From: Bolinopsis microptera
Lineage: Eukaryota; Ctenophora; Tentaculata; Lobata; Bolinopsidae
Length of the DNA: 64,000 nucleotides
Reading direction: 5' to 3'
Assembly: GCF_026151205.1 (NCBI RefSeq)
Contig: NC_087076.1
Coordinates: 23,058,828 to 23,122,827 of the forward strand
The notes under the pieces were generated by a model. The model was not told where the DNA came from, did no database searches, and worked only from the letters and a program-made list of their open reading frames with translations. Shown here piece after piece: positions 1,370 to 61,787 of the stretch. Each line of letters starts with the position of its first letter. Within the stretch, counting starts at the first letter, position 1. The translations under genes were made by a program, and so were the position numbers.

Positions 1370-2061
1370 CATTCTGTAGTTCTCCTTGTAGTCCTCCTCG
1401 GTCCTCCTTGTAGTCCTACTTGTAGTTCTCCTTGTAGTTCCCCTCGGTCCTCCTTGTAGTCCTCCTTGTAGTTCCCCTCGGTCATTCTTGTAGTTCTCCT
1501 TGTAGTCCTCCTTGTAGTTCTCCTCGGTCCTCCTTGTAGTTCTCCTTGTAATCCTCCTTGTAGTCCTCCTCGGTCCTCCTTGTAGTTCCCCTCGGTCCTC
1601 CTTGTAGTCCTCCTTGTAGTTCCCCTCGGTCATTCTTGCAGTTCTCCTTGTAGTCCTCCTCGTAGTTCTCCTTGTAGTCCTCCTCGGTTCTCCTTGTAGT
1701 CCTCCTCGGTCCTCCTTGTAGTCCTCCTTGTAGTCCTCCTCGGTCCTCCTTGTAGTCCTCCTTGTAGTTCTCCTCGGTCCTCTTTGTAGTCCTCCTTGTA
1801 GTCCTCCTCGGTCCTCTTTGTAGTCCTCCTCGGTCCTCCTTTTAGTCCTCCTTGTAGTCCTCTTCGGTCCTCCTTGTAGTCCTCCTTGTAGTTCTCCTTG
1901 TAGTCCTCCTTGTAGTCCTCCTTGTAGTCCTCCTTGTAGTTCTCCTTGTAGTCCTCCTTGTAGTTCTCCTTGTAGTTCTCCTTGTAGTTCCCCTCAGTCA
2001 CCTTGTAGAGTTGCAGTTAAAATTGTATATAAAATAAAGCAGAAAATTGCAATCAAAATGG

Positions 2062-5000
2062 TTAGGTAGTAGGCAGATTACCTTGGCAAGTTCTAGTAAT
2101 TCCTTGTAGTTCCCCTCGGTCCTTCTTGCAGTCCTCCTCGGTCCTCCTTTTAGTCCTCCTTGTAGTCCTCCTCGGTCCTTCTTGTAGTCCTCCTTGTAGT
2201 TCCCCTCGGTCCTCCTTGTAGTCCTCCTTGTAGTCCTCCTCGGTCCTCCTTGTAATTCTCCTTGTAGTTCCCCTCGGTCCTTCTTGTAGTCCTCCTTGTA
2301 GTCCTCCTCGGTCCTCCTTGTAATTCTCCTTGTAGTCCTCCTCGGTCCTCCTTGTAGTCCTCATCGGTCCTCCTTGTAGTCTTCCTCAGTCCTCCTTGTA
2401 GTCCTTCTCGGTCCTCCTTGTAGTCCTCCTTGTAGTCCTCCTCGGTCATCCTTGTAGTTCTCCTTGTAGTCCTCCTCGATCATCCTTGTAGTCCTCCTTG
2501 TAGTCCTCCTTGTAGTTCTCCTTGTAGTCCTCCTTGTAGTTCTCCTTGTAGTCCTCCTTGTAATTCTCCTTGTAGTCCTCCTTGTAGTCCTCCTTGTAGT
2601 TCTCCTTGTAGTCCTCCTTGTAGTTCTCCTTGTAGTCCTCCTTGTAATTCTCCTTGTAGTCCTCCTTGTAGTCCTCCTTGTAGTCCTCCTCGGTCATCCT
2701 TGTAGTTCTCCTTGTAGTCCTCCTCGATCATCCTTGTAGTCCTCCTTGTAGTCCTCCTTGTAGTTCTCCTTGTAGTCCTCCTTGTAGTTCTCCTTGTAGT
2801 CCTCCTTGTAATTCTCCTTGTAGTCCTCCTTGTAGTCCTCCTCGGTCCTCCTTGTAGTCCTCCTTGTAGTTCCCCTCAGTCCTCCTTGTAGTCCTCCTTG
2901 TAGTCCTCCTCGGTCCTCCTTGTAGTCACCTTGTAGAGTTGCAGTTAAAATTGTGTATAAAATAAAGCAGAAAATTGCAATCAAAATGGTTAGGTAGTAG
3001 GCAGATTACCTTGGCAAGTTCTAGTAGCTCCTTGTAGTTCTCCTCGGTCCTTCTTGTAGTCCTCCTCGGTCCTCCTTGTAGTCCTACTTGTAGTTCTCCT
3101 TGTAGTTCCCCTCGGTCCTCCTTGTAGTACTCCTTGTAGTTCCCCTCGGTCATTCTTGTAGTTCTCCTTGTAGTCCTCCTTGTAGTTCTCCTCGGTTCTC
3201 CTTGTAGTTCTCCTTGTAGTCCTCCTTGTAGTTCTCCTCGGTCCTTCTTGCAGTCCTCCTTGTAGTCCTCCTTGTAGTCCTCCTCGGTCCTCCTTGTAGT
3301 TCTCCTTGTAGTCGTCCTCGGTCCTTCTTGTAGTCCTCTTCGGTCCTCCTTGTAGTCCTCCTTGTAGTCCTCCTCGGTCCTCCTTGTAGTCCTCCTTGTA
3401 GTTCCCCTCGGTCATTCTTGTAGTCCTCCTTGTAGTCCTCCTCGGTCCTCCTTGTAGTCCTCCTTGTAGTTCCCCTCGGTCATTCTTGTAGTCCTCTTCG
3501 GTCCTCCTTGTAGTCCTCCTTGTAGTCCTCCTCGGTCCTTCTTGTAGTCCTCTTCGGTCCTCCTTGTAGTCCTCCTTGTAGTCCTCCTCGGTCCTCCTTG
3601 TAGTCCTCCTTGTAGTTCCCCTCGGTCATTCTTGTAGTTCTCCTTGTAGTCCTCCTTGTAGTTCTCCTCGGTCCTCCTTGTAGTTCTCCTTGTAATCCTC
3701 CTTGTAGTCCTCCTCGGTCCTCCTTGTAGTTCCCCTCAGTCCTCCTTGTAGTCCTCCTTGTAGTTCCCCTCGGTCATTCTTGTAGTTCTCCTTGTAGTTC
3801 TCCTTGTAGTCCTCCTTGTAGTTCTCCTTGTAGTTCTCCTTGTAGTCCTCCTTGTAGTCCTCCTTGTAGTCCTCCTTGTAGTTCTCCTTGTAGTCCTCCT
3901 TGTAGTTCTCCTCGGTCCTCCTTGTAGTTCTCCTTGTAATCCTCCTTGTAGTCCTCCTCGGTCCTCCTTGTAGTTCCCCTCGGTCCTCCTTGTAGTTCCC
4001 CTCGGTCATTCTTGTAGTTCTCCTTGTAGTTCTCCTTGTAGTCCTCCTTGTAGTTCTCCTTGTAGTTCTCCTTGCAGTCCTCCTTGTAGTCCTCCTTGTA
4101 GTCCTCCTTGTAGTTCTCCTTGTAGTCCTCCTTGTAGTTCTCCTCGGTCCTCCTTGTAGTTCTCCTTGTAATCCTCCTTGTAGTCCTCCTCGGTCCTCCT
4201 TGTAGTTCCCCTCAGTCCTCCTTGTAGTCCTCCTTGTAGTTCCCCTCGGTCATTCTTGTAGTTCTCCTTGTAGTTCTCCTTGTAGTCCTCCTTGTAGTTC
4301 TCCTTGTAGTTCTCCTTGTAGTCCTCCTTGTAGTCCTCCTTGTAGTTCTCCTTGTAGTCCTCCTTGTAGTTCTCCTTGTAGTTCTCCTTGTAGTTCCCCT
4401 CAGTCACCTTGTAGAGTTGCAGTTAAAATTGTATATAAAATAAAGCAGAAAATTGCAATCAAAATGGTTAGGTAGTAGGCAGATTACCTTGGCAAGTTCT
4501 AGTAATTCCTTGTAGTTCCCCTCGGTCCTTCTTGCAGTCCTCCTCGGTCCTCCTTTTAGTCCTCCTTGTAGTCCTCCTCGGTCCTCCTTGTAGTTCTCCT
4601 TGTAGTCCTCCTTGTAGTCCTCCTCGGTCCTCTTTGTAGTCCTCCTCGGTCCTCCTTTTAGTCCTCCTTGTAGTCCTCTTCGGTCCTCCTTGTAGTCCTC
4701 CTTGTAGTTCTCCTTGTAGTCCTCCTTGTAGTCCTCCTTGTAGTCCTCCTTGTAGTCCTCCTTGTAGTTCTCCTTGTAGTCCTCCTTGTAGTTCTCCTTG
4801 TAGTTCTCCTTGTAGTTCCCCTCAGTCACCTTGTAGAGTTGCAGTTAAAATTGTATATAAAATAAAGCAGAAAATTGCAATCAAAATGGTTAGGTAGTAG
4901 GCAGATTACCTTGGCAAGTTCTAGTAATTCCTTGTAGTTCCCCTCGGTCCTTCTTGCAGTCCTCCTCGGTCCTCCTTTTAGTCCTCCTTGTAGTCCTCCT

Positions 5001-8000
5001 CGGTCCTTCTTGTAGTCCTCCTTGTAGTTCCCCTCGGTCCTCCTTGTAGTCCTCCTTGTAGTCCTCCTCGGTCCTCCTTGTAATTCTCCTTGTAGTTCCC
5101 CTCGGTCCTTCTTGTAGTCCTCCTTGTAGTCCTCCTCGGTCCTCCTTGTAATTCTCCTTGTAGTCCTCCTCGGTCCTCCTTGTAGTCCTCATCGGTCCTC
5201 CTTGTAGTCTTCCTCAGTCCTCCTTGTAGTCCTTCTCGGTCCTCCTTGTAGTCCTCCTTGTAGTCCTCCTCGGTCATCCTTGTAGTTCTCCTTGTAGTCC
5301 TCCTCGATCATCCTTGTAGTCCTCCTTGTAGTCCTCCTTGTAGTTCTCCTTGTAGTCCTCCTTGTAGTTCTCCTTGTAGTCCTCCTTGTAATTCTCCTTG
5401 TAGTCCTCCTTGTAGTCCTCCTTGTAGTTCTCCTTGTAGTCCTCCTTGTAGTTCTCCTTGTAGTCCTCCTTGTAGTCCTCCTTGTAGTCCTCCTCGGTCA
5501 TCCTTGTAGTTCTCCTTGTAGTCCTCCTCGATCATCCTTGTAGTCCTCCTTGTAGTCCTCCTTGTAGTTCTCCTTGTAGTCCTCCTTGTAGTTCTCCTTG
5601 TAGTCCTCCTTGTAATTCTCCTTGTAGTCCTCCTTGTAGTCCTCCTCGGTCCTCCTTGTAGTCCTCCTTGTAGTTCCCCTCAGTCCTCCTTGTAGTCCTC
5701 CTTGTAGTTCTCCTTGTAGTTCTCCTTGTAGTTCCCCTCGGTCATTCTTGTAGTCCTCCTTGTAGTCCTCCTCGGTCCTCCTTGTAGTCACCTTGTAGAG
5801 TTGCAGTTAAAATTGTGTATAAAATAAAGCAGAAAATTGCAATCAAAATGGTTAGGTAGTAGGCAGATTACCTTGGCAAGTTCTAGTAGCTCCTTGTAGT
5901 TCTCCTCGGTCCTTCTTGTAGTCCTCCTCGGTCCTCCTTGTAGTCCTACTTGTAGTTCTCCTTGTAGTTCCCCTCGGTCCTCCTTGTAGTACTCCTTGTA
6001 GTTCCCCTCGGTCATTCTTGTAGTTCTCCTTGTAGTCCTCCTTGTAGTTCTCCTCGGTTCTCCTTGTAGTTCTCCTTGTAGTCCTCCTTGTAGTTCTCCT
6101 CGGTCCTTCTTGCAGTCCTCCTTGTAGTCCTCCTTGTAGTCCTCCTCGGTCCTCCTTGTAGTTCTCCTTGTAGTCCTCCTCGGTCCTTCTTGTAGTCCTC
6201 TTCGGTCCTCCTTGTAGTCCTCCTTGTAGTCCTCCTCGGTCCTCCTTGTAGTCCTCCTTGTAGTTCCCCTCGGTCATTCTTGTAGTCCTCCTTGTAGTCC
6301 TCCTCGGTCCTCCTTGTAGTCCTCCTTGTAGTTCCCCTCGGTCATTCTTGTAGTCCTCTTCGGTCCTCCTTGTAGTCCTCCTTGTAGTCCTCCTCGGTCC
6401 TTCTTGTAGTCCTCTCTGGTCCTCCTTGTAGTCCTCCTTGTAGTCCTCCTCGGTCCTCCTTGTAGTCCTCCTTGTAGTTCCCCTCGGTCATTCTTGTAGT
6501 TCTCCTTGTAGTCCTCCTTGTAGTTCTCCTCGGTCCTCCTTGTAGTTCTCCTTGTAATCCTCCTTGTAGTCCTCCTCGGTCCTCCTTGTAGTTCCCCTCA
6601 GTCCTCCTTGTAGTCCTCCTTGTAGTTCCCCTCGGTCATTCTTGTAGTTCTCCTTGTAGTTCTCCTTGTAGTCCTCCTTGTAGTTCTCCTTGTAGTTCTC
6701 CTTGTAGTCCTCCTTGTAGTCCTCCTTGTAGTCCTCCTTGTAGTTCTCCTTGTAGTCCTCCTTGTAGTTCTCCTCGGTCCTCCTTGTAGTTCTCCTTGTA
6801 ATCCTCCTTGTAGTCCTCCTCGGTCCTCCTTGTAGTTCCCCTCGGTCCTCCTTGTAGTTCCCCTCGGTCATTCTTGTAGTTCTCCTTGTAGTTCTCCTTG
6901 TAGTCCTCCTTGTAGTTCTCCTTGTAGTTCTCCTTGCAGTCCTCCTTGTAGTCCTCCTTGTAGTCCTCCTTGTAGTTCTCCTTGTAGTCCTCCTTGTAGT
7001 TCTCCTCGGTCCTCCTTGTAGTTCTCCTTGTAATCCTCCTTGTAGTCCTCCTCGGTCCTCCTTGTAGTTCCCCTCAGTCCTCCTTGTAGTCCTCCTTGTA
7101 GTTCCCCTCGGTCATTCTTGTAGTTCTCCTTGTAGTTCTCCTTGTAGTCCTCCTTGTAGTTCTCCTTGTAGTTCTCCTTGTAGTCCTCCTTGTAGTCCTC
7201 CTTGTAGTCCTCCTTGTAGTCCTCCTTGTAGTTCTCCTTGTAGTCCTCCTTGTAGTTCTCCTTGTAGTTCTCCTTGTAGTTCCCCTCAGTCACCTTGTAG
7301 AGTTGCAGTTAAAATTGTATATAAAATAAAGCAGAAAATTGCAATCAAAATGGTTAGGTAGTAGGCAGATTACCTTGGCAAGTTCTAGTAATTCCTTGTA
7401 GTTCCCCTCGGTCCTTCTTGCAGTCCTCCTCGGTCCTCCTTTTAGTCCTCCTTGTAGTCCTCCTCGGTCCTCCTTGTAGTTCTCCTTGTAGTCCTCCTTG
7501 TAGTCCTCCTCGGTCCTCTTTGTAGTCCTCCTCGGTCCTCCTTTTAGTCCTCCTTGTAGTCCTCTTCGGTCCTCCTTGTAGTCCTCCTTGTAGTTCTCCT
7601 TGTAGTCCTCCTTGTAGTCCTCCTTGTAGTCCTCCTTGTAGTTCTCCTTGTAGTCCTCCTTGTAGTTCTCCTTGTAGTTCTCCTTGTAGTTCCCCTCAGT
7701 CACCTTGTAGAGTTGCAGTTAAAATTGTATATAAAATAAAGCAGAAAATTGCAATCAAAATGGTTAGGTAGTAGGCAGATTACCTTGGCAAGTTCTAGTA
7801 ATTCCTTGTAGTTCCCCTCGGTCCTTCTTGCAGTCCTCCTCGGTCCTCCTTTTAGTCCTCCTTGTAGTCCTCCTCGGTCCTTCTTGTAGTCCTCCTTGTA
7901 GTTCCCCTCGGTCCTCCTTGTAGTCCTCCTTGTAGTCCTCCTCGGTCCTCCTTGTAATTCTCCTTGTAGTTCCCCTCGGTCCTTCTTGTAGTCCTCCTTG

Positions 8001-8735
8001 TAGTCCTCCTCGGTCCTCCTTGTAATTCTCCTTGTAGTCCTCCTCGGTCCTCCTTGTAGTCCTCATCGGTCCTCCTTGTAGTCTTCCTCAGTCCTCCTTG
8101 TAGTCCTTCTCGGTCCTCCTTGTAGTCCTCCTTGTAGTCCTCCTCGGTCATCCTTGTAGTTCTCCTTGTAGTCCTCCTCGATCATCCTTGTAGTCCTCCT
8201 TGTAGTCCTCCTTGTAGTTCTCCTTGTAGTCCTCCTTGTAGTTCTCCTTGTAGTCCTCCTTGTAATTCTCCTTGTAGTCCTCCTTGTAGTCCTCCTTGTA
8301 GTTCTCCTTGTAGTCCTCCTTGTAGTTCTCCTTGTAGTCCTCCTTGTAATTCTCCTTGTAGTCCTCCTTGTAGTCCTCCTTGTAGTCCTCCTCGGTCATC
8401 CTTGTAGTTCTCCTTGTAGTCCTCCTCGATCATCCTTGTAGTCCTCCTTGTAGTCCTCCTTGTAGTTCTCCTTGTAGTCCTCCTTGTAGTTCTCCTTGTA
8501 GTCCTCCTTGTAATTCTCCTTGTAGTCCTCCTTGTAGTCCTCCTCGGTCCTCCTTGTAGTCCTCCTTGTAGTTCCCCTCAGTCCTCCTTGTAGTCCTCCT
8601 TGTAGTTCTCCTCGGTCATTCTTGTAGTTCTCCTTGTAGTTCTCCCTGTAGTTCTCCTTGTAGTCCTCCTTGTAGTCACCTTGTAGAGTTGCAGTTAAAA
8701 TTGTGTATAAAATAAAGCAGAAAATTGCAATCAAA
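2062..8735. repeat. Higher-order repeat A, ~2.85-kb period
   Basis: Blocks starting at 2062, 4890 and 7764 translate identically over at least 300 bp, giving periods of 2828 and 2874 bp. Further landmarks repeat at 2926/5788, 2990/5852 and 3626/6488, all offset by 2862 bp. Differences are mainly gains or losses of whole 12-bp units, as expected from unequal exchange or replication slippage. The third unit is incomplete and gives way to repeat B near 8.9 kb. Confidence 0.85.
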
Positions 8736-8939
8736 ATGGTTAGGTAGTAGGCAGATTACCTTGGCAAGTTCTAGTAGCTTCTTGTAGTTCTCCTCGGTCC
8801 TTCTTGCAGTCCTCCTTGTAGTCCTCCTTGTAGTCCTCCTCGGTCTTTCTTGTAGTCCTCTTCGGTCCTCCTTGTAGTCCTCCTTGTAGTCCTCCTCGGT
8901 CCTCCTTGTAGTCCTCCTTGTAGTTCCCCTCGGTCATTC

Positions 8940-11900
8940 TTGTAGTTCTCCTTGTAGTCCTCCTTGTAGTTCTCCTCGGTCCTCCTTGTAGTTCTCCTTG
9001 TAATCCTCCTTGTACTCCTCCTCGGTCCTCCTTGTAGTTCCCCTCAGTCCTCCTTGTAGTCCTCCTTGTAGTTCCCCTCGGTCATTCTTGTAGTTCTCCT
9101 TGTAGTCCTCCTCGTAGTTCTCCTTGTAGTCCTCCTCGGTTCTCCTTGTAGTCCTCCTCGGTCCTCCTTGTAGTCCTCCTTGTACTTCTCCTTGTAGTTC
9201 CCCTCGGTCCTCCTTGTAGTCCTCCTTGTAGTCCTCCTCGGTCCTCTTTGTAGTCCTCCTCGGTCCTCCTTTTAGTCCTCCTTGCAGTAGTCCTCCTCGG
9301 TCCTCCTTGTAGTCCTCCTTGTAGTCCTTGTAGTCCTCTTTGTAGTTCCCCTCGGTCCTCCTTGTAGTTCTCCTTGTAGTTCTCCTTGTAGTCCTCCTTG
9401 TAGTTCTCCTTGTAGTTCTCCTTGTAGTCCTCCTTGTAGTTCCCCTCAGTCCTCCTTGTAGTCCTCCTTGTAGTTCTCCTTGTAGTTCCCCTCGGTCCTC
9501 CTTGTAGTCCTCCTTGTAGTCCTCCTCGGTCCTCCTTGTAATTCTCCTTGTAGTTCCCCTCGGTCCTTCTTGTAGTCCTCCTTGTAGTCCTCCTCGGTCC
9601 TCCTTGTAATTCTCCTTGTAGTCCTCCTCGGTCCTCCTTGTAGTCCTCCTCGGTCCTCCTTGTAGTCTTCCTCAGTCCTCCTTGTAGTCCTCCTCGGTCC
9701 TCCTTGTAGTCCTCTTTGTAGTCCTCCTCGGTCATCCTTGTAGTTCTCCTTGTAGTCCTCCTCGATCATCCTTGTAGTCCTCCTTGTAGTCCTCCTTGTA
9801 GTTCTCCTTGTAGTCCTCCTTGTAGTTCTCCTTGTAGTCCTCCTTGTAATTCTCCTTGTAGTCCTCTGTAGTCCTCCTTGTAGTTCTCCTTGTAGTCCTC
9901 CTTGTAGTTCTCCTTGTAGTCCTCCTTGTAATTCTCCTTGTAGTCCTCCTTGTAGTCCTCCTTGTAGTTCCCCTCGGTCCTCCTTGTAGTCCTCCTTGTA
10001 GTCCTCCTCGGTCCTCTTTGTAGTCCTCCTCGGTCCTCCTTTTAGTCCTCCTTGCAGTAGTCCTCCTCGGTCCTCCTTGTAGTCCTCCTTGTAGTCCTTG
10101 TAGTCCTCTTTGTAGTTCCCCTCGGTCCTCCTTGTAGTTCTCCTTGTAGTTCTCCTTGTAGTCCTCCTTGTAGTTCTCCTTGTAGTTCTCCTTGTAGTCC
10201 TCCTTGTAGTTCCCCTCAGTCCTCCTTGTAGTCCTCCTTGTAGTTCTCCTTGTAGTTCCCCTCGGTCCTCCTTGTAGTCCTCCTTGTAGTCCTCCTCGGT
10301 CCACCTTGTAATTCTCCTTGTAGTTCCCCTCGGTCCTTCTTGTAGTCCTCCTTGTAGTCCTCCTCGGTCCTCCTTGTAATTCTCCTTGTAGTCCTCCTCG
10401 GTCCTCCTTGTAGTCCTCCTCGGTCCTCCTTGTAGTCTTCCTCAGTCCTCCTTGTAGTCCTCCTCGGTCCTCCTTGTAGTCCTCTTTGTAGTCCTCCTCG
10501 GTCATCCTTGTAGTTCTCCTTGTAGTCCTCCTCGGTCCTCCTTTTAGTCCTCCTTGTAGTCCTCCTCGGTCCTTCTTGTAGTCCTCCTTGTAGTTCCCCT
10601 CGGTCCTCCTTGTAGTCCTCCTTGTAGTCCTCCTCGGTCCTCCTTGTAATTCTCCTTGTAGTTCCCCTCGGTCCTTCTTGTAGTCCTCCTTGTAGTCCTC
10701 CTCGGTCCTCCTTGTAATTCTCCTTGTAGTCCTCCTCGGTCCTCCTTGTAGTCCTCATCGGTCCTCCTTGTAGTCTTCCTCAGTCCTCCTTGTAGTCCTT
10801 CTCGGTCCTCCTTGTAGTCCTCCTTGTAGTCCTCCTCGGTCATCCTTGTAGTTCTCCTTGTAGTCCTCCTCGATCATCCTTGTAGTCCTCCTTGTAGTCC
10901 TCCTTGTAGTTCTCCTTGTAGTCCTCCTTGTAGTTCTCCTTGTAATCCTCCTTGTACTCCTCCTCGGTCCTCCTTGTAGTTCCCCTCAGTCCTCCTTGTA
11001 GTCCTCCTTGTAGTTCCCCTCGGTCATTCTTGTAGTTCTCCTTGTAGTCCTCCTCGTAGTTCTCCTTGTAGTCCTCCTCGGTTCTCCTTGTAGTCCTCCT
11101 CGGTCCTCCTTGTAGTCCTCCTTGTACTTCTCCTTGTAGTTCCCCTCGGTCCTCCTTGTAGTCCTCCTTGTAGTCCTCCTCGGTCCTCTTTGTAGTCCTC
11201 CTCGGTCCTCCTTTTAGTCCTCCTTGCAGTAGTCCTCCTCGGTCCTCCTTGTAGTCCTCCTTGTAGTCCTTGTAGTCCTCTTTGTAGTTCCCCTCGGTCC
11301 TCCTTGTAGTTCTCCTTGTAGTTCTCCTTGTAGTCCTCCTTGTAGTTCTCCTTGTAGTTCTCCTTGTAGTCCTCCTTGTAGTTCCCCTCAGTCCTCCTTG
11401 TAGTCCTCCTTGTAGTTCTCCTTGTAGTTCCCCTCGGTCCTCCTTGTAGTCCTCCTTGTAGTCCTCCTCGGTCCTCCTTGTAATTCTCCTTGTAGTTCCC
11501 CTCGGTCCTTCTTGTAGTCCTCCTTGTAGTCCTCCTCGGTCCTCCTTGTAATTCTCCTTGTAGTCCTCCTCGGTCCTCCTTGTAGTCCTCCTCGGTCCTC
11601 CTTGTAGTCTTCCTCAGTCCTCCTTGTAGTCCTCCTCGGTCCTCCTTGTAGTCCTCTTTGTAGTCCTCCTCGGTCATCCTTGTAGTTCTCCTTGTAGTCC
11701 TCCTCGATCATCCTTGTAGTCCTCCTTGTAGTCCTCCTTGTAGTTCTCCTTGTAGTCCTCCTTGTAGTTCTCCTTGTAGTCCTCCTTGTAATTCTCCTTG
11801 TAGTCCTCTGTAGTCCTCCTTGTAGTTCTCCTTGTAGTCCTCCTTGTAGTTCTCCTTGTAGTCCTCCTTGTAATTCTCCTTGTAGTCCTCCTTGTAGTCC

Positions 11901-12824
11901 TCCTTGTAGTTCCCCTCGGTCCTCCTTGTAGTCCTCCTTGTAGTCCTCCTCGGTCCTCTTTGTAGTCCTCCTCGGTCCTCCTTTTAGTCCTCCTTGCAGT
12001 AGTCCTCCTCGGTCCTCCTTGTAGTCCTCCTTGTAGTCCTTGTAGTCCTCTTTGTAGTTCCCCTCGGTCCTCCTTGTAGTTCTCCTTGTAGTTCTCCTTG
12101 TAGTCCTCCTTGTAGTTCTCCTTGTAGTTCTCCTTGTAGTCCTCCTTGTAGTTCCCCTCAGTCCTCCTTGTAGTCCTCCTTGTAGTTCTCCTTGTAGTTC
12201 CCCTCGGTCCTCCTTGTAGTCCTCCTTGTAGTCCTCCTCGGTCCACCTTGTAATTCTCCTTGTAGTTCCCCTCGGTCCTTCTTGTAGTCCTCCTTGTAGT
12301 CCTCCTCGGTCCTCCTTGTAATTCTCCTTGTAGTCCTCCTCGGTCCTCCTTGTAGTCCTCCTCGGTCCTCCTTGTAGTCTTCCTCAGTCCTCCTTGTAGT
12401 CCTCCTCGGTCCTCCTTGTAGTCCTCTTTGTAGTCCTCCTCGGTCATCCTTGTAGTTCTCCTTGTAGTCCTCCTCGATCATCCTTGTAGTCCTCCTTGTA
12501 GTCCTCCTTGTAGTTCTCCTTGTAGTCCTCCTTGTAGTTCTCCTTGTAGTCCTCCTTGTAATTCTCCTTGTAGTCCTCCTTGTAGTCCTCCTTGTAGTTC
12601 TCCTTGTAGTCCTCCTTGTAGTCCTCCTTGTAGTTCTCCTTGTAGTCCTCCTTGTAATTCTCCTTGTAGTCCTCCTTGTAGTCCTCCTTGTAGTCCTCCT
12701 CGGTCATCCTTGTAGTTCTCCTTGTAGTCCTCCTCGATCATCCTTGTAGTCCTCCTTGTAGTCCTCCTTGTAGTTCTCCTTGTAGTCCTCCTTGTAGTTC
12801 TCCTTGTAGTCCTCCTTGTAATTC
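8940..12824. repeat. Higher-order repeat B, 1942-bp period
   Basis: Landmarks at 9082, 9446 and 9732 recur at 11024, 11388 and 11674, each offset by exactly 1942 bp. A sub-block marked by the variant CTTGCAGTAGTCC recurs at about 9280, 10051, 11222, 11993 and 13597, so each 1942-bp unit itself contains a ~771-bp internal duplication. The absence of visible length drift between the two large copies suggests a very recent duplication, or possibly an assembly duplication. Confidence 0.85.
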
Positions 12825-13853
12825 TCCTTGTAGTCCTCCTTGTAGTCCTCCTTGTAGTCCTCCTCGGTCCTCCTTGTAGTCCTCCTCGGTCCTCCTTGTA
12901 GTTCTCCTTGTAGTTCCCCTCGGTCATTCTTGTAGTTCTCCTTGTAGTTCTCCTTGTAGTTCTCCTTGTAGTCCTCCTTGTAGTCACCTTGTAGAGTTGC
13001 AGTTAAAATTGTGTATAAAATAAAGCAGAAAATTGCAATCAAAATGGTTAGGTAGTAGGCAGATTACCTTGGCAAGTTCTAGTAGCTCCTTGTAGTTCTC
13101 CTCGGTCCTTCTTGCAGTCCTCCTTGTAGTCCTCCTTGTAGTCCTCCTCGGTCTTTCTTGTAGTCCTCCTCGGTCCTCCTTGTAGTCCTCCTTGTAGTCC
13201 TCCTCGGTCATCCTTGTAGTCCTCCTTGTAGTCCTCCTCGGTCATCCTTGTAGTTCTCCTTGTAATTCCCCTCGGTCCTCCTTGTAGTTCTTCTCGATTC
13301 TCCTTGTAGTCCTCCTCGGTCCTCCTTGTAGTCCTCCTCGGTCCTCCTTGTAGTCTTCCTCAGTCCTCCTTGTAGTCCTCCTTGTAGTTCCCCTCGGTCA
13401 TTCTTGTAGTTCTCCTTGTAGTCCTCCTCGTAGTTCTACTTGTAGTCCTCCTCGGTTCTCCTTGTAGTCCTCCTCGGTCCTCCTTGTAGTCCTCCTTGTA
13501 CTTCTCCTTGTAGTTCCCCTCGGTCCTCTTTGTAGTCCTCCTTGTAGTCCTCCTCGGTCCTCTTTGTAGTCCTCCTCGGTCCTCCTTTTAGTCCTCCTTG
13601 CAGTAGTCCTCCTCGGTCCTCCTTGTAGTCCTCCTTGTAGTCCTTGTAGTCCTCTTTGTAGTTCCCCTCGGTCCTCCTTGTAGTTCTCCTTGTAGTTCTC
13701 CTTGTAGTCCTCCTTGTAGTTCTCCTTGTAGTTCTCCTTGTAGTCCTCCTTGTAGTTCCCCTCAGTCCTCCTTGTAGTCCTCCTTGTAGTTCTCCTTGTA
13801 GTTCTCCTTGTAGTCCTCCTTGTAGTCCTCCTTGTAGTTCCCCTCAGTCCTCG

Positions 13854-14739
13854 GCTGCCAGACTTTGGGGCCGAAGTGATATGATCCACCATATACGTCA
13901 TCAAGTAATTAACATGCAAGCTTGAAGCTTGTGGCGTATAATTAGTGATGTGATCCATGGATTGAATATAATTGACCTAGAAATGGGCTAGATCTGGGGT
14001 AAAGTTCATATGACAACTCTGCACACAGAAGCTACAAATTAAGAAGTGAACATGTTTTAAATTGAGACAATGTATTGGCTGGTTATAAAATGTTAAATCG
14101 ATTAATAATATAATACTTCAGAATACAACAAATTACTCAATATTATTACCAAAGTATTTCGCAACAGCGAACAAGTACTCAATCTTTGTTGGGTATGTCG
14201 TGTAGAAGGAACAAAGGTCGTACAGAATACTGCTGGAAATCCTCTTCTTTTTGGAAGGAGTCTTTCCAACAGCAAGCCGATCCAGATGGTAATCTGTAAC
14301 AACCTGTTGCTCCTTGATAGCACGAAAATATTCTTGAACAGAGGGCTTTGGGCGATTCACTCGGGTTTTGAAACCTCTGTGAAACCCCTCCACCATGTTA
14401 GAGGTCCGAGGGAACTCCGGATCCTGAAGAATACTGGCGAAATGATTGCAAGCGTTTGACACGTACGTCTCACATCCCTTGATACGAGAACCCCCCTTTA
14501 GCAAGAGCTCCCGTCCCTTATGTGATCTACGAGTCGAGCAGTCAGATCATGTTTACTTCTTAATGAACAGCTATGTTGTACAGAATTGACATGTGAACTC
14601 TACCCAGTATCTAGCCTATTTCTGGGCCAATTAAATTCTACAGATGGATCACATCACTAATTATACGTCACTAATTGGTGACGTGATCTGACTCATCTTT
14701 GGGGGCCGGATCAGTTTTCGGCCCCAAAGTCTCCCAGTG
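13854..14739. mobile_element. MULE remnant with ~190-bp TIRs in the minisatellite
   Basis: The two ends are inverted copies. GACTTTGGGGCCGAA at the left is mirrored at 14716-14730, and similarity continues inward to about 14054 on the left and 14548 on the right. The flanks share CAGTCCTC (13845-13852 and 14740-14747), which fits the 8-9-bp duplications of Mutator-like elements, although that octamer is also a common array variant. At only 886 bp the element is internally deleted and keeps just the end of a transposase gene on the minus strand. It interrupts the 12/10-bp array, which resumes at 14740. Confidence 0.75.
14133..14504 (-). pseudogene. MULE transposase C-terminal fragment
   Basis: This 123-codon open frame carries the segment SNMVEGFHRGFKTRVNRP followed by a short helix-rich stretch with EYFRAIKEQQ, which matches the region after the catalytic domain of Mutator-like (MULE) transposases. 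The catalytic DDE residues lie upstream in intact proteins and are absent here, so the fragment cannot be an active transposase. It sits between the long TIRs of the 886-bp element. The assignment rests on motif memory, not on a database search. Confidence 0.65.
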
Positions 14740-14995
14740 CAGTCCTCCTTGTAGTTCTCCTTGTAGTTCTCCTTGTAGTCCTCCTCGGTCCTCCTTGTAG
14801 TCCTCCTCGGTCCTCCTTGTAGTCTTCCTCAGTCCTCCTTGTAGTCCTCCTCGGTCCTCCTCGGTCATCCTTGTAGTTCTCCTTGTAATTCCCCTCGGTC
14901 CTCCTTGCAGTTCTTCTCGGTTCTCCTTGTAGTCCTCCTCGGTTCTCTTTGTAGTTCTCTTCGGTCCTCCTCGTAGTCCTCCTCGGTCCTCCTTG
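14740..14995 (-). repeat. Minisatellite remainder right of the MULE
   Basis: The 12/10-bp units continue for about 250 bp after the MULE with more sequence drift, including several TTCTCGGT variants. The end of the array coincides with the start of the second hAT-like MITE copy at about 14996. Confidence 0.85.
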
Positions 14996-15168
14996 TTACT
15001 AGGCGGCCCTCAGCCTGTCATTCCGCCTAATCTCTATTAACATAATATTAACGGGTGATACTCGTAAAATATCTGTTCCATATATTAGGACCGTCGACGA
15101 GTCCAAATCGGCGCGCGTCCTGGTAGGTTGTAACCCTACAAACATAATAGCATGAGGTTCCCAGGTAA
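14996..15168. mobile_element. Tiny hAT-like MITE, copy 2, split by a nested element
   Basis: The left half (TTACTAGGCGGCCC onward) ends at 15047 and the right half resumes at 15142 with ACATAATAGCATGAGG and closes with CCCAGGTAA. Removing the 94-bp insert at 15048-15141 and one copy of ACATAATA restores the family consensus. The MITE sits at the right edge of the minisatellite. I see no clear duplication around the MITE itself. Confidence 0.7.
15048..15141. mobile_element. 94-bp nested MITE with 8-bp duplication
   Basis: The direct repeat ACATAATA flanks this segment (15040-15047 and 15142-15149). The insert begins TTAACGGGTGATACTCG and ends CCCTACAA. Its first 29 bp recur at 62838-62866, and the GGCGCGCGTCCTG motif inside it recurs next to that second copy, so it belongs to a dispersed family. 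An 8-bp duplication again fits hAT-type transposition. Terminal inverted repeats are weak. Confidence 0.6.
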
Positions 15169-23527: not shown

Positions 23528-51071
<27,544 letters not shown>

Positions 51072-54997: not shown

Positions 54998-57900
54998 TTA
55001 ACGATATTTTTCATAAGATTGTTTAGGTTTTAGAGCTAATCGCTCTGACCTGCGAGTTTGGTTAGTTTCTTGTGCTTCACCTGAACTGGGGTTATTGTTA
55101 GTTAACTCTGGTTCGTTCGTTCTGAGAGGTGTGTTAGGTAAATCAACTTCAGTTAATTGTTCTGACGACACAACCGTACTAGAATTAGGTAAAGTAAAAC
55201 ATTCAGTCTCTGGAGAATTGTCATTTTCCGACGTCTCTGCTTGTTGTAGTACCGAAACTGATCTTTGCTTGATATGGTCTGCGTGTTTAATCACGTTTCT
55301 TCCGTCAAACATAACTTCGTACATGTTAGAGTTCCCGATTCTTCGTTGAATTTCTCCTTGACTCCAAGTGTCTTTGTTTTGTGGTTGCACATATACTTTC
55401 TGCTTGTCTTCAAACTGGCGGTTTCTGATTCTGCTGGCATTCAGTATTTCCTGTTCTTTATCCACGTTCAATCTTTCAGACGTTTCACGATCTGCCGGAA
55501 ATACGTGATTCAACCTTGTTCTTACATAGAGCTTCTTAAATAGTGCTTCAGACGGTGGTATCCCAGTAACGCTGTGCGGAGTGATTCTGTAGTTAACTAA
55601 GAAATTTGCTAGATTCTTGTCGACATCTTTACAATTTTCATACATCTTTTTCATCGCGTCTTTGAATGTTCCTACAAATCTCTCACAGCATCCATTAATT
55701 TTTGGGTGATACGTTCCTGTCTTTAAGTGGTGTATGTTGTTCCTCTGCAAGAAATCTTCGAATTCCTGTGAAGTAAAGTTTGTTCCGTTGTCACTCACTA
55801 TAACAAACGGTAGTCCGAATCTACTGAAAATGGTTCTCAAAGCTCTGATCGTTGCTGATGATGTGGTGTTATTGTTCATCTTTACCACTTCAGGCCAACG
55901 TGAATGAGCGTCATAAACTACTAACCACATGCTGTTGAGAAATGGTCCAGCGTAATCAATGTGGACTCTTTGCCAAGGCATTGATGGTCTGGTCCATGGG
56001 TGTTCAATCAAACTTGGTAAACTCTTCCCATGTTTCCCACATGTTGTGCACGTGTTAGCTATTTGCTCGATCTCTGAGTTTATTAACGGCCAATATACGT
56101 AAGATCGTGCTAATGTTTTCATCCTGCTGATACCTAGGTGTGTTGCGTGTAACATCTCCAATACCGTAGTCCTTAACTTAACTGGAATGATAACTCTGCA
56201 ACCCCATGTCAAACATCCGTTTTCTATTGAAATGTCGTTTCTCCGATTCCAATAAGCGGTCATTTCATTTGTGAAATTTGTTTCTCTATCTGACCATCCA
56301 TTCTTCACGTAGTGTAGAACTTTCGATAAGACAGGGTCCTTCCTGGTATGTGATTCGATGTTTTTAGCCGTTAATCCTGTATTTTCTATATCCACACTCT
56401 GTACCCAATCGTTTTCTGTTTCCTTTTCATCTTCTGGGGTGTGTGGTCTTGGTAGTCTCGATAACATGTCAGCGTTCCCATGGGCTTTGGTTGATCTGTA
56501 GCAGATATCATAGTCGTAATCCATGAGAAATAATGACCATCTGGTTAATCTTGCTGCGGTCATGACTGACAGTTGCTTGTTTTTGCTGAAGATGTGTACT
56601 AGTGGCTGGTTGTCGGTTATCAATTTAAACTTCCTTCCATACAGGTACAAATGGAAACGTTTAACAGCCCACAAAATCGCTGCTGCTTCACGGTCGATTT
56701 GTGCGTAGTTCTTTTCCGCTGCAGTTAAAGTCCTTGAAATATACTCGATTGGACGTTCTGATCCATCGGGCATTGTATGTGACAGTACTGCACCCAATCC
56801 GGTCGGAGAGGCGTCAGTGTCAAGTTTCAGCGGTTTCTTAGGATCGTACAAAGTCAGCACTACATCCGAGCTAAGTAGTTCCTTTAAATTCTTCCAAGCT
56901 TCTTGTTGTCTCTTTGTCCACTTCCATTCTACTCCTTTCTTTCTGAGTTCATCTAATGGAGCAACAATCTGTGACATATTTGATAGATACCTCCTGTAGT
57001 AGTTCACTCCTGACAAGAATGATACTAATTCTTCTACTGATCGTGGTGCTCTCATGTTTAGCATATCTTCCACTTTCGACTTAACGGGTCTGATCCCGTC
57101 TTTGTTTACCTCATGTCCTAGGTAAATCACAGAGTCTTTCAAGAATTCTGACTTTTCCATCTTGCATCTGTATCCTTGGTTTTCCAATCGGCCAATAACT
57201 TCGTTGAGTATTCTCAGGTGTTCCTCTCTGTCCTTTCCGGAAACGAGGATGTCGTCCACTCTGCAACAACACATTGGTATCCCTGCCAATGTCTGATCTA
57301 TGGTCTCTTGAAAAATGGCTGCTGCTGGAGAAATACCGTAGGGTAAACGATTCCACAATAACTGTCCTAAATGGGTGTTAATCGTTGTCAGTATTCTGTC
57401 TTCTTTCCTGATTGGGATGTTATTGTATGCAGCTCTAACGTCTAGTTTTGTAAACTGCTGTCCTCCCGTTACTTTGTTCAGGCACTCTTCTATAGACGGC
57501 AGTGGGTACTGCTGTGCTGCCATAGCAGGATTCAAAGTAAGGTTATACGAGCCACATATACGAGTCTTTTCTCCTTTGAACACGGGGACTATAGGTGTTC
57601 CCCAAGGGCTTGCTCCCTCTACCTTGGTTAGTGTTCCCTCGTTCAACATTCTTGTCAGCTCTTTCCCTACTTGATCCTTTTTCGCGTACGGCAAAGGTCT
57701 CACACCCAACGATTTTGGTTGAGCATCTTCTTTCAGCACTAGTTTTGCCATTGCTCCTTTGATGAGCCCCAGTCCTTCTTCAAAAATAGGACTGATTTTC
57801 AGCTCGTCTAAACTTCTCAAAGGTTTCTGAACTTCTTTCTTCTGTGTGACTGTTCCCTCGTTCATGGTTCTTTGATCACCCCTCTCTGAGGGTCTTTGTT

Positions 57901-59551
57901 CACCCCTCTCTGAGGGTCTCTGACTAAGAGGTAAAAGGGACACACAGGACTGGACTTCGACAGGACTAACATGGACATTACTAACATTCACAGACTTACT
58001 TACACATGGGGAAAAATCAAAACAAGAAGAAATAGCAGTCTTTGATCTCTTCAGTGTTGTCTCCAACCAGTCATCTCCTAAAAATCTGGTTATCCAAGAT
58101 TGTCCCATTAATGATGGACATTTTCCTTCCACAATGAATAAGTCTAGTTTTGGAATCATCTTTCCATTGAATTCTACGTCGACTTGTGCTTTCGCCATCA
58201 CTGGTAGTCTCTCATTGTTCGCTGCTCTCAGTCTTTTTGCCGAAGGTATAAGAGGAAGTAAATCTAATCCTACCTTAGACAACACATTACAACTAACAAT
58301 ACTTACGCTTGATCCGGAGTCAAATTCCATGTTCAAATCTCGTCCATTTAGTTTCACTGGCACTAACAGTTTTTCTGAGGAAGTATGGTTACAATTGAAT
58401 TCAACAATCTCTTGATTGTCAATCAATTCTATAGAAGAAGAGTCATCACAAGCATCTAAATTTGAATCATCATACTCAATAACTGTGTCAAATTCAGAAT
58501 AATCATCAGAGGGTAATAACTTCGAATAATCAAATTTGTCAATTTCAATCAATTCGTTTTCACTTTCTCTCACTCTAAACATATCTACTGATTTCTCCTC
58601 AACACAAACAAAAGCTATCTCGACGTCGCTCTCGTCATTCTCATCGGTCTCGGAAGATTCTTCAACATGGTGAGATTTATCACCTTTTCTGTACTTATAG
58701 TTCTTCTTGGTACCCGTGCAGTTTCTAGCAATGTGGTACTTCTCTTTGCACTTCCTGCATACTGTTTTACAGTCCCTTGTGTTATGACTGCGCAATGTAC
58801 ACTTTTCACAGTACATTTCTCCTCTTGGTTTTAAACTACTTTCTTTTCTGAAATGCTTTGATTTCCTATCCGAAACCTTATTCACAGTTCCAGAAGTTCC
58901 ACTGTTTCTGACAGTAACACTATTTTTCGACATATATTGAGCTTCTTCCACAGATTTCTCTAAAGTTGCTACATGCTCTCTCGCTGTTGCTAATGTTAAA
59001 TCTGTTTTCTTCAGGAGTTTCGCTTTCACGCTTTCATCACTCAGTCCAGCTATGAATTGGTCCAGCATTCTCGATTCCAACTCGTTCTCAAATTCACAGT
59101 CCATGGCAGTTTCGGTTAGTCTTTCGACATATTCTGCCACACGCTCTCCTTTCACTTGAAAGATTCGGGTGAAGGCGTATCGTTGAGCGAATTTAGTTGG
59201 TTTTGGTGAGTAATGGTTACAAAGTTTCTGTTTTATTACTTTGTACTCCGTTGTGATTATATCCTCTGGTTTTGCGAAGTGGTACGCTTTTTTGAACATT
59301 GCTGCGTCCATTGATACTATCAGCATCTGAGTCCACTGTAGCTGTACATTCCGGTCGTTTCTCCTGTCTCGCTCTGTAGTCCAGGCGGTTCTTGCCTCTA
59401 CATCTGCGTTCAGGTTCTCCGGTACAACTTCAATCACTGGCTCTACGATAGCTCGCTGGTGATTAACGAACACTTCGAATTGGGTGAACCACAACCTGAT
59501 GTTGGATCCGATGTTGGTGGTCAATTTCTGGTCATACATCCGCGTCGCCAT
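54998..59551 (-). CDS. Gypsy gag-pol polyprotein, 1517 residues
   Basis: A single uninterrupted frame. Gag is at the start, followed by two CCHC knuckles at about 248-280 (CEKC and CRKC). The protease has FDSGSS with its aspartate at 411. The RT has PLPSIEECL, FTKLDVRAAYNNI and a VDD at 765-767. RNase H follows with LDTDASPTGLGAVLS. The integrase has an HHCC finger and D1199, D1254 and E1290, spaced D-35-E as usual. The residue before VDD is Arg, where most Gypsy RTs have an aromatic residue. Gag and Pol are fused with no frameshift. The start codon overlaps the probable primer-binding site. Confidence 0.95.
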   Translation of the reverse strand: MATRMYDQKLTTNIGSNIRLWFTQFEVFVNHQRAIVEPVIEVVPENLNADVEARTAWTTERDRRNDRNVQLQWTQMLIVSMDAAMFKKAYHFAKPEDIITTEYKVIKQKLCNHYSPKPTKFAQRYAFTRIFQVKGERVAEYVERLTETAMDCEFENELESRMLDQFIAGLSDESVKAKLLKKTDLTLATAREHVATLEKSVEEAQYMSKNSVTVRNSGTSGTVNKVSDRKSKHFRKESSLKPRGEMYCEKCTLRSHNTRDCKTVCRKCKEKYHIARNCTGTKKNYKYRKGDKSHHVEESSETDENDESDVEIAFVCVEEKSVDMFRVRESENELIEIDKFDYSKLLPSDDYSEFDTVIEYDDSNLDACDDSSSIELIDNQEIVEFNCNHTSSEKLLVPVKLNGRDLNMEFDSGSSVSIVSCNVLSKVGLDLLPLIPSAKRLRAANNERLPVMAKAQVDVEFNGKMIPKLDLFIVEGKCPSLMGQSWITRFLGDDWLETTLKRSKTAISSCFDFSPCVSKSVNVSNVHVSPVEVQSCVSLLPLSQRPSERGEQRPSERGDQRTMNEGTVTQKKEVQKPLRSLDELKISPIFEEGLGLIKGAMAKLVLKEDAQPKSLGVRPLPYAKKDQVGKELTRMLNEGTLTKVEGASPWGTPIVPVFKGEKTRICGSYNLTLNPAMAAQQYPLPSIEECLNKVTGGQQFTKLDVRAAYNNIPIRKEDRILTTINTHLGQLLWNRLPYGISPAAAIFQETIDQTLAGIPMCCCRVDDILVSGKDREEHLRILNEVIGRLENQGYRCKMEKSEFLKDSVIYLGHEVNKDGIRPVKSKVEDMLNMRAPRSVEELVSFLSGVNYYRRYLSNMSQIVAPLDELRKKGVEWKWTKRQQEAWKNLKELLSSDVVLTLYDPKKPLKLDTDASPTGLGAVLSHTMPDGSERPIEYISRTLTAAEKNYAQIDREAAAILWAVKRFHLYLYGRKFKLITDNQPLVHIFSKNKQLSVMTAARLTRWSLFLMDYDYDICYRSTKAHGNADMLSRLPRPHTPEDEKETENDWVQSVDIENTGLTAKNIESHTRKDPVLSKVLHYVKNGWSDRETNFTNEMTAYWNRRNDISIENGCLTWGCRVIIPVKLRTTVLEMLHATHLGISRMKTLARSYVYWPLINSEIEQIANTCTTCGKHGKSLPSLIEHPWTRPSMPWQRVHIDYAGPFLNSMWLVVYDAHSRWPEVVKMNNNTTSSATIRALRTIFSRFGLPFVIVSDNGTNFTSQEFEDFLQRNNIHHLKTGTYHPKINGCCERFVGTFKDAMKKMYENCKDVDKNLANFLVNYRITPHSVTGIPPSEALFKKLYVRTRLNHVFPADRETSERLNVDKEQEILNASRIRNRQFEDKQKVYVQPQNKDTWSQGEIQRRIGNSNMYEVMFDGRNVIKHADHIKQRSVSVLQQAETSENDNSPETECFTLPNSSTVVSSEQLTEVDLPNTPLRTNEPELTNNNPSSGEAQETNQTRRSERLALKPKQSYEKYR

Positions 59552-59681
59552 TGTTATGTTTTGGTATTCTATCTATAATTCGTGAGTTCTTCAGAGAATT
59601 GATACACTTGTTATAACTTGGACTTGAATCCTAGGCTAAGGATAGAAATGGTTAATAATCATTATATTACAATTCACAACA
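59552..59681 (-). repeat. Gypsy 5' LTR
   Basis: 130 bp, upstream of the gag-pol start on the minus strand. The next bases on that strand are ATGGCGACGCGG, so a TGG-initiated primer-binding site and the start codon appear to overlap. Confidence 0.93.
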
Positions 59682-59686
59682 GCAAA

Positions 59687-60770
59687 CCTCTATGCACACT
59701 ATCGAACGCCTTTTTGAAATCAATGAAAACCATGGTGGCCTTGAGATTTTTGGCTCTAGCACCCTCCATAATTCTTCGTAGAGCAAGGATGTGCGATGTT
59801 GTAGAGCGCCCAGGTCTAAAGCCATTCTGGTTGTCCCTTAAAACTTCCTCAAGACTTGGCTTCATCCTGTTCAGCAACATTTTGTTCAGAGTTTTACTGA
59901 CTATCGATGTCAGAGATATTCCTCTGTAGTTGTCGGTCTTAGTGAGGTCCCCTTTCTTTGGCACAGGAACAATATTGCTGAGCTTCCATTGATCGGGCAT
60001 GAGACCATCACATAATGCATCGTTGCAGAACTTCAGGATGACGTCATCGATGTCCACCCTCTTCATCACTTCAGGTGAGATACCATCATCACCATAAGCT
60101 TTGCCTTCTACTATCTGCTTTTTGGCAAGACGTAGTTCCTCAATGGTGAACGGGCCATCCTCTATATTCAGTGGAGGGTGTATATTCCTGATCGGAATGC
60201 TATTGTCAGGGACTGTGGGTGGCTGTCCAAGTAACCCAGAGAAGTGCTTCCTCCAGTTCTCAAGACGTTCTGTTGAGCTGCCCCCTTCCACGAGTCCACA
60301 GCTGGGATTTGTCCTCCCTGAAATATCGTTGACAAGCTTCCAGCTTTCCTTGTTCTTACAACGATCAGCAGTATCCTCAACTTTCCTGATCTTTCCTTTC
60401 AGGATCTCCTCCTCTACCTCTTTGTAGCAGGCCTTTAACAAATCCTTTTTAGTGGCGACTTCCTCTCTCTTCTCCTCACAAGGCTCCTGATGGTATTGGT
60501 CCTTGGCCAAGAACAGTCCCCTCCTTGCACTGTCCACTCTTGGGTCACTTGAGGGGTCAATCTGCTTTTGTCGAGTCTTCTTTGGCAGAAGGCTCTTGTT
60601 TGCCGCCTCAATAGCAACCATAAGCTTCCCGTAGCTTTCAGTGGCCCCATCATCCTTCTCTACCAGGCCAGAGAATCTATTCCGAACTTCAATTGCATAC
60701 TTTTTTTGAAGCTCACCATCCGACTTCAGGGCACTATAATCATAGTTAACTTTTTTCGGAGGCCTGTGTC
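59687..60770 (-). pseudogene. LINE RT N-terminal part, cut by Gypsy
   Basis: The frame contains the linker, EGKAYGDDGISPEVMKR, WKLSNIVPVPKKGD, NYRGISLTSIVSK, NQNGFRPGRSTTSH and MVFIDFKKAFDSVHRGL. It stops where the Gypsy 5' LTR and its GCAAA duplication begin. Reverse transcriptase motifs up to the first catalytic aspartate (FIDFKKAFD) are intact, and the second catalytic motif is missing from the whole LINE. Confidence 0.85.
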
Positions 60771-60788
60771 CTTTCCTAAAGCTAACTT

Positions 60789-61787
60789 TTATTTGATCTT
60801 ACACACTACAACTCTGTGATCAGATCCCAACGACTGAAAAGTGTTGTAAACTTCAGTGTTCTTTAATGAGTTTTTCCACTTCCGCCGTATGAGGATATAG
60901 TCAATCTGACCTTTGTTAAGTGTCCCATCGGATAAGAAGGTCCACCTCTTGTTGACCTTCTTTCTGAAGCGGATATTGGTAATTTCCATATCACACTCCA
61001 GGGCAGTGTCTCTCAGTAGCTCTCCATTCCGATTGGTACGAGTATGAAAGTACCAACGGGAATCTTCTTCACTCTCCTTTCCAAGCCGGGCGTTCATATC
61101 TCCCTCTGTGATCAGCAGGTGGTGCGCTGGCACATCATTCATAGCCTGTCTAAGGGTGTTATGGAAATCCTCCGCTTCTTCAACTAGTGCTGCCTCGGTA
61201 GGACTATAGGCAGTTATAGTTGTGAGTCTGGGATTTCCGTTGAAAGAGATAGTCAGCACCCTTGAGCCATAGGGTTTAATGAGGCTGATTGCGCTGTATG
61301 CTCTTCTAGTCAGCAGAAAGCCCACTCCACCAGTGGCTGCTCCTGCTCCATTCCTCCATGCTGAAACAGTTACCAAGCTAACCCCCTCCTTGAACTTTTC
61401 GATCTTGATCGGTTCCTGGTGGACAATCCTATGTTCTTGGATCCCAAGGATCTCCATGCCACTCTCCAGAAACTGAGTCACGAGTTCAAGGCGCTTGTAA
61501 CCTTCTCTAGCAGTTCGGACATTAAATGTCCCTACTAGAGCTACCTCACTACAAGAAACCAATGCATCCCCATCCTTTTTTTGTTGTTTTATGTTATTTT
61601 TTGTGCCGGGTGAAGGTGCCGGCATATCATCTGTCACCCCTCTCCTAGGGAGTTTTAGGGTGAGAGAGTCATCAATCCGGTCCCCTCCGACATCTAAATC
61701 AGTGGTAGGGACTTTAACCCTAGTGTTATTATAAGACATCATCAAACTTTTCAATGGCTGGTGTCTCATGCGCAGTCCCCTGCACAT
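60789..61787 (-). CDS. LINE endonuclease domain
   Basis: A 332-codon frame with TFNVRTAREGYKRLELV, ILGIQEHR, TEGDMNARLG, LNKGQIDYILIRR and SLGSDHRVVV, the ordered active-site motifs of the exonuclease-endonuclease-phosphatase fold. It ends at a stop (KIK) just before a one-base shift into the RT linker (FRKGHRPPKKVNYDYSAL). In an intact copy it would be the N-terminal half of a single protein. It is best viewed as part of a dead LINE. Confidence 0.85.
   Translation of the reverse strand: MCRGLRMRHQPLKSLMMSYNNTRVKVPTTDLDVGGDRIDDSLTLKLPRRGVTDDMPAPSPGTKNNIKQQKKDGDALVSCSEVALVGTFNVRTAREGYKRLELVTQFLESGMEILGIQEHRIVHQEPIKIEKFKEGVSLVTVSAWRNGAGAATGGVGFLLTRRAYSAISLIKPYGSRVLTISFNGNPRLTTITAYSPTEAALVEEAEDFHNTLRQAMNDVPAHHLLITEGDMNARLGKESEEDSRWYFHTRTNRNGELLRDTALECDMEITNIRFRKKVNKRWTFLSDGTLNKGQIDYILIRRKWKNSLKNTEVYNTFQSLGSDHRVVVCKIK

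Follow-up and report, generated by a model that had tools for sequence, protein, structure and literature searches.

A minisatellite array with nine repeated modules

We analysed a 64,000-bp stretch of the genome of the ctenophore Bolinopsis microptera (contig NC_087076.1, positions 23,058,828–23,122,827), referred to below as the window; unless another locus is named, coordinates are those of the window. On its minus strand, the window holds the 3′ part of a DNA transposon and, adjoining it, a minisatellite array in which an intron-like module recurs nine times. Our analysis indicates that a coding stretch of this dead transposon has very probably grown into a 12-kb array, which carries a cut-off piece of an intron nine times.

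The array extends over 1375–13849, its right edge being approximate (Tandem Repeats Finder places the main array at 1375–13838), and is built, in minus-strand sense, of 12-bp and 10-bp units. A simple pattern count, limited to the variants named here, gave 598 units of 12 bp (GACTACAAGGAG, AACTACAAGGAG, AATTACAAGGAG, GATTACAAGGAG) and 216 units of 10 bp (GACCGAGGAG, GACCGAGGGG, GACTGAGGGG); the 12-bp units predominate. The sequence CTACAAGG occurs 605 times. An outer (5′) remainder of the array lies at 14742–14996 on the minus strand and was found by Tandem Repeats Finder with a period of 22 bp. The two parts are separated by a later, unstranded insertion (13850–14741, edges approximate) with imperfect inverted ends, CTGCCAGACTTTGGGGCC and CTGCACTGGGAGACTTTGGGGCC; a Pfam search of its 137-aa frame gave no match.

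The nine 80-bp modules that an earlier note on this DNA had reported were recovered position for position, with no or one mismatch relative to the first, and all within this one minisatellite. They lie on the minus strand and fall into two types that are one base apart. Four modules (2930–3009, 5792–5871, 8680–8759, and 12988–13067) share their base with L001, the sole other locus found to carry such an array, and are classed as ancestral, and the remaining five (2002–2081, 4408–4487, 4830–4909, 7294–7373, and 7704–7783) carry the derived base. Read on the minus strand, the module runs CCAAG/GTAATC...CTCTACAAG/GTGAC, where slashes mark the splice-like boundaries. Both the strong donor (CCAAG/GTAATC, 9/9 modules) and the pyrimidine-rich interior (62.5% pyrimidine in the first module) described in the earlier note are present. 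Immediately upstream of the first donor, at 2082–2111 on the minus strand, lies a transposase exon remnant reading NYKELLELAK, comparable to DYKELLELSK in the related element L019 described below. An equivalent exon end precedes every donor (9/9), with the variant YKKLLELAK at the module at 8680.

The parent DNA transposon and its truncated copy in the window

A search of the genome (264.65 Mb) with the protein of the shared exon yielded 36 matches, many of them weak, and six of the matched regions were fetched as relatives, including L019, L022, and L023. L019 (contig C1) contains long open frames on either side of an intron, and the frames of L022 (C9, 507 aa) and L023 (C5, 342 aa) cover the corresponding region without interruption. 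Inverted repeats of 460 bp, 99% complementary (L019 868–1327 and 4508–4967), enclose L019, and an 8-bp target-site duplication, CTGTCGCT, is present on either side. Further copies of the L019 ends exist in the genome: from the best 40 of 413 candidate matches, we chose eight further end pairs in opposite orientation and about 2 kb apart, six of which showed a perfect 8-bp duplication; none was found in the other two (L029/L030 and L039/L040). The long inverted repeats, the 8-bp target duplications, and the recurring ends together identify the parent as a 4.1-kb DNA transposon that contains a transposase-like gene. Two observations on the wider family may be added. L022 1–602 and 2645–3471 flank the transposase relative on both sides with frames of short-unit tandem repeats, (LPSYPATQ)n. 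At L021, fragments of a transposon of the same family lie about 3.3 kb apart (C5:6773645, 6776964, and 6780277), which suggests tandem duplication.

In the window, the 3′ part of the transposon occupies 580–1374 on the minus strand and comprises the end of the second intron, the last coding exon, the 3′ tail, and the inner part of the 3′ inverted repeat. This region matches positions 2975–3723 of the L019 element at 76% (blastn), and the border between the second intron's end and the array lies at 1374/1375. The copy keeps only the inner part of one inverted repeat, and stops interrupt its 3′ exon in each frame. A blastn search of the window with the element part upstream of the exon end, evaluated outside 1990–13200, returned only a cross-match between inverted repeats. 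By tblastn, the only parts detected were the 3′ exon and the exon end with the intron stub (L019 frame residues 450–486). Compared with the L019 element, array flanks homologous to the transposon are found on the 3′ side only in the window, the 5′ side being lost, and on both sides in L001. The window copy, a truncated transposase-like pseudogene, lacks its 5′ part and looks dead, and most likely the locus produces no protein and acts solely as an unstable repeat.

The modules are stubs of a single intron

A DNA search with the module and its flanks found two loci only, namely the window, with nine copies, and C5:10191685–10191808 (L001), with one copy that continues into the rest of the intron. 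The L019 intron is 144 bp long and runs from GTAATG to CCTGCAG, following an exon that ends in GACTACAAGGAGCTACTGGAACTTTCCAAG; the L001 intron is 142 bp long and has matching ends. Once spliced, the L019 exons read SDYKELLELSK-IFLGESVSRKKGYEY (SDYKELLELSK-IFLGESVSRKKGY). This reading is collinear with the uninterrupted frames of L022, DYKEYLELTK-IILGGSIDRKKGYTY (DYKEYLELTK-IILGGSIDRKKGY), and of L023, DYKELLELVK-LILGGDTERKKGYSY (DYKELLELVK-LILGGDTERKKGY), which supports both splice sites of L019.

Three modules, those at 2002, 2930, and 12988, were aligned with the introns of L001 and L019. The match takes in the exon end, the donor, and positions 1–107 of the L001 intron, minus 31 bp that are missing internally from the modules. 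Each module thus consists of a 76-bp 5′ stub of the parental intron, with 31 bp lost inside, followed by CAAG of a minisatellite unit. The donor AAG/GTAAT, at the exon boundary YKELLELAK/GTAATC, is homologous to the real donor in L001 and L019. Past ..CTCTA, L001 and L019 continue in agreement (TTGTAATTTT..AACTC..TTATTCC[TC]GCAG/ATATTC), the L001 intron extending for another 35 bp to its acceptor, and here the modules diverge. In all nine, the intron part stops after ..GCAACTCTA and is joined to array sequence, CAAGGTGAC, and the parental acceptor GCAG/ATATTC is absent from all nine. Since L001 and L019 run on together to the true acceptor and the modules continue with CAAGGTGAC, the apparent acceptor is the array's own CTACAAGG. 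The acceptor proposed in the earlier note is present as a motif, CTACAAGGTGAC occurring nine times in the array, but represents a junction with an array unit and not an inherited splice site. The joint falls at a CTA that is common to the intron and the array unit, as at the breakpoint of a tandem duplication.

On the evidence of this alignment, the nine modules are not complete introns of a repetitive gene, but stubs of the intron of one transposase-like gene. The exon end and the intron stub recur jointly inside the array in all nine cases, so the repeated unit crosses the exon–intron boundary, which points to a past duplication event. Of the two origins that the earlier note had offered, growth of a minisatellite across an exon–intron boundary is accordingly borne out: homology to L019 and L001, where the intron is real, extends over the exon end, the donor, and the initial part of the intron, and the array sits at the adjoining codons.

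The reading frame is not maintained

The second origin, a repetitive multi-exon gene that is amplifying its exons, would require a functional minus-strand gene with (YKED)n exons and nine genuine 80-bp introns. It is consistent with the GT..AG ends and with AAG/GT at both boundaries of all nine modules, and it had been proposed that splicing keeps the YKE-type frame. This holds for five modules only, in which the sequence after the junction reads GTG ACT GAG GGG AAC TAC (VTEGNY); in the other four (2930, 5792, 8680, and 12988) it reads VTTRR. When module splicing is assumed, two of the eight inter-module stretches, of 330 bp (7374–7703) and 342 bp (4488–4829), are open and in phase. Six contain in-phase stops, and three of the eight have lengths that are not multiples of three, so an open frame is not kept across the putative exons and junctions.

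The two open stretches would speak for such a gene if they were unusual. Among module-free array stretches of the same lengths, however, 2384 of 8464 (28%) at 330 bp and 2259 of 8355 (27%) at 342 bp are likewise open in phase, which makes the two cases unremarkable. Longer module-free stretches are rarely or never open (123 of 4421 at 882 bp, 0 of 2857 at 1398 bp, and 0 of 2808 at 1422 bp). Furthermore, the 10-bp unit shifts the frame, the blastn and tblastn searches described above found nothing in the window of the element's portion upstream of the exon end, and the 3′ exon is interrupted in all frames. Because the gene in question is a truncated transposase-like pseudogene, an exon-amplifying gene is left without support, and we assign next to no probability to a functional gene of this kind.

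Probable origin of the array in the codons of the exon

The second locus, L001, indicates where the array began. Relatives of the transposase share the protein motif ..R(S/G)DYKE(L/Y)LELxK.., and in L019 and L001 the intron follows LELxK. The DYKE site is single and unexpanded in L019, L022, and L023, the three of the six fetched relatives that were seen to cover it. In L001, the array sits at the DYKE codons, between two exon parts. Its 5′ flank matches the L019 element up to position 2407 and its 3′ flank from position 2389 (blastn ends), so that the L001 array can be understood as this segment expanded in tandem. Remains of a coding exon on the minus-strand 3′ side are likewise common to L001 and the window. 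Judged from these sequence comparisons, the codons of the exon itself (GACTACAAGGAG, encoding DYKE) were the seed of the array.

All 184 genomic occurrences of the exact 22-bp dimer CTACAAGGAGGACTACAAGGAG lie in the window, on the minus strand only, and L001 has none. The L001 insert between its two DYK sites measures 369 bp, a multiple of three, and has no stop in the exon frame. This is less remarkable than it seems, because the 22-bp unit (12 + 10) lacks stops in every frame and is translated into one and the same 22-residue repeat in each of the three. We also observed that the 22-bp array at L001 4811–5191, open in the exon frame, would add 123 repeat residues to the transposase, and that exon 2 of L001 has extra bases near the array relative to L019.

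A first DNA search for dispersed arrays gave at least 96 matches (39 of 167 candidates scored), and those outside the window and L001 were 68–79% identical. They were rejected as unrelated low-complexity sequence; of 16 such places fetched, the 13 examined (L003–L015) hold arrays of other units, mostly rich in GAG/TCC.

Proposed growth of the array

The modules at 2002, 4830, and 7704 are spaced by 2828 and 2874 bp, and long exact matches occur within the array at offsets of 2828, 2862, 2874, 5702, and 1942 bp. Together with the two-type pattern, this shows that the nine modules are not independent and that blocks of up to kilobases were copied. Such matches, at offsets of about 2.8–2.9 kb and 1.94 kb, would also be expected if the block copies were a misassembly of a shorter array. 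The window contains no N, however, and the 150 bp upstream of the donors are 0.64–1.0 identical between copies in ungapped comparison, so that not all copies are the same. A single module copy would, moreover, yield the same reading of the module. We regard an assembly artefact as extremely unlikely.

Growth by boundary-crossing duplication probably proceeded in five steps. First, about 22 bp around the DYKE codons would have been tandemly duplicated in one transposon copy, which reached two places on one chromosome. Next, runs of the 12-bp unit would have expanded in the window lineage. A larger tandem duplication, sealed at CTA, may then have captured the array, the exon end, and the intron stub, by which the stub joined the repeat. 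Block-wise unequal exchange or slippage, involving blocks of up to kilobases, would have raised the number of stubs to nine. A deletion could have joined the array to the second intron, taking with it the rest of the first intron, the true acceptor, and the second exon. The later insertion at about 13850–14741 split the array.

Several points weigh against this account. The order of the steps is inferred, and no copy in the window retains the array together with a full intron, as expected once after a tandem duplication, so a further deletion must be assumed. The CTA match spans only 3 bp, and all nine modules have CAAGGTGAC where the array usually has CAAGGAGGAC, both of which blur the exact joint. 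For the transposase, no Pfam or NCBIfam family scores above its cut-off, and the Protein Data Bank (PDB) yielded no credible relative; chance-level hits for the transposase-like proteins were PF19920 (E 0.069) and PF10145 (E 0.0036), neither of which reached its cut-off, and one PDB chain (E 0.77). Lastly, the pyrimidine content of the new acceptor resembles that of real acceptors, and the spliceosome might use it.

This last point bears on a further reading, in which the inherited donor is spliced in vivo to acceptors of the array and the resulting chimeric introns multiply without a protein product. The donor does derive from a real intron, the array offers 605 CTACAAGG sites, and in potato an intron has been reported to arise by duplication across an intron–exon boundary (PMC4974935). 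The pyrimidine share before AG (0.65 in three modules, against 0.59 and 0.65 at true acceptors) fits as well, but does not separate true from apparent acceptors and hence argues neither way. Against this reading, neither blastn nor tblastn found the upstream part of the transposase gene in the window. We consider such splicing very unlikely, and give equally little credence to its fuller form, in which the array would be a running intron factory with nine inherited donors and hundreds of possible CTACAAG/G acceptors spliced in vivo. If true, it would mean that repeat amplification within a dead transposon has generated and multiplied new chimeric introns.

Other features of the window

Elsewhere in the window, two arrays of a 19-bp unit (CTACCTCCTCCCCCCTCTG) lie at 36796–40779 (209 copies) and 50193–50799 (32 copies). 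They are open in all three plus-strand frames, for 1338–1372 and 233–246 codons, respectively; the frames cycle since 19 is not divisible by three. Nested tandem repeats of 20, 70, 90, 110, and 140 bp, based on CACTACACGTGGTGTGACGT, occupy 24314–24825. A long terminal repeat (LTR) retroelement at 54998–59572 (minus strand) has a 1524-residue frame with matches to gag, protease, reverse transcriptase, RNase H, and integrase. Further reverse transcriptase frames are found at 42043–45528 (plus strand), 47788–48804 (minus strand), and 59674–60798 (minus strand), the first of which also contains an endonuclease domain, as in LINE elements.

Comparison with known systems

hAT elements are DNA transposons with 8-bp target duplications. 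The parent element resembles them in its long terminal inverted repeats (TAGGTTGGTTC..), its 8-bp target duplications, and the many copies of its ends. It differs in that its transposase has no Pfam, NCBIfam, or PDB family match, so that any placement in the hAT superfamily would be tentative. Tandem repeats that arise from transposable elements are well described (PMC9659126; PMC7004042). As in those minisatellites and satellites, a short segment from within a transposon has expanded in tandem and outgrown its source; here, in contrast, the seed is a stretch of a transposase coding exon, and the higher-order repeat has taken up a truncated segment of the adjacent intron.

The potato report (PMC4974935) describes an intron gained via a tandem duplication that crossed the intron–exon boundary. 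There, as in the window, the duplication spans the boundary, leaving one inherited splice site and a second that originates at the duplication. In potato, however, the new intron was detected in a gene, whereas in the window the host is a dead transposon and any splicing would be hypothetical. Among the matches listed, a literature search on repeats and introns gave no title naming this locus. With an intermediate (L001) and an unexpanded relative (L019), the locus offers a traceable case of the passage from a transposon coding stretch to a 22-bp and then to a mixed 12/10-bp minisatellite, in the course of which an exon–intron boundary was swept into the repeat. It also calls for caution, as conserved GT..AG ends in repeated modules can go back to a single donor and a single recombination joint that were copied, and are then not evidence of splicing. 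Taken together, the locus adds no new kind of system, but unites two described ones, transposon-born repeats and boundary-crossing duplication.

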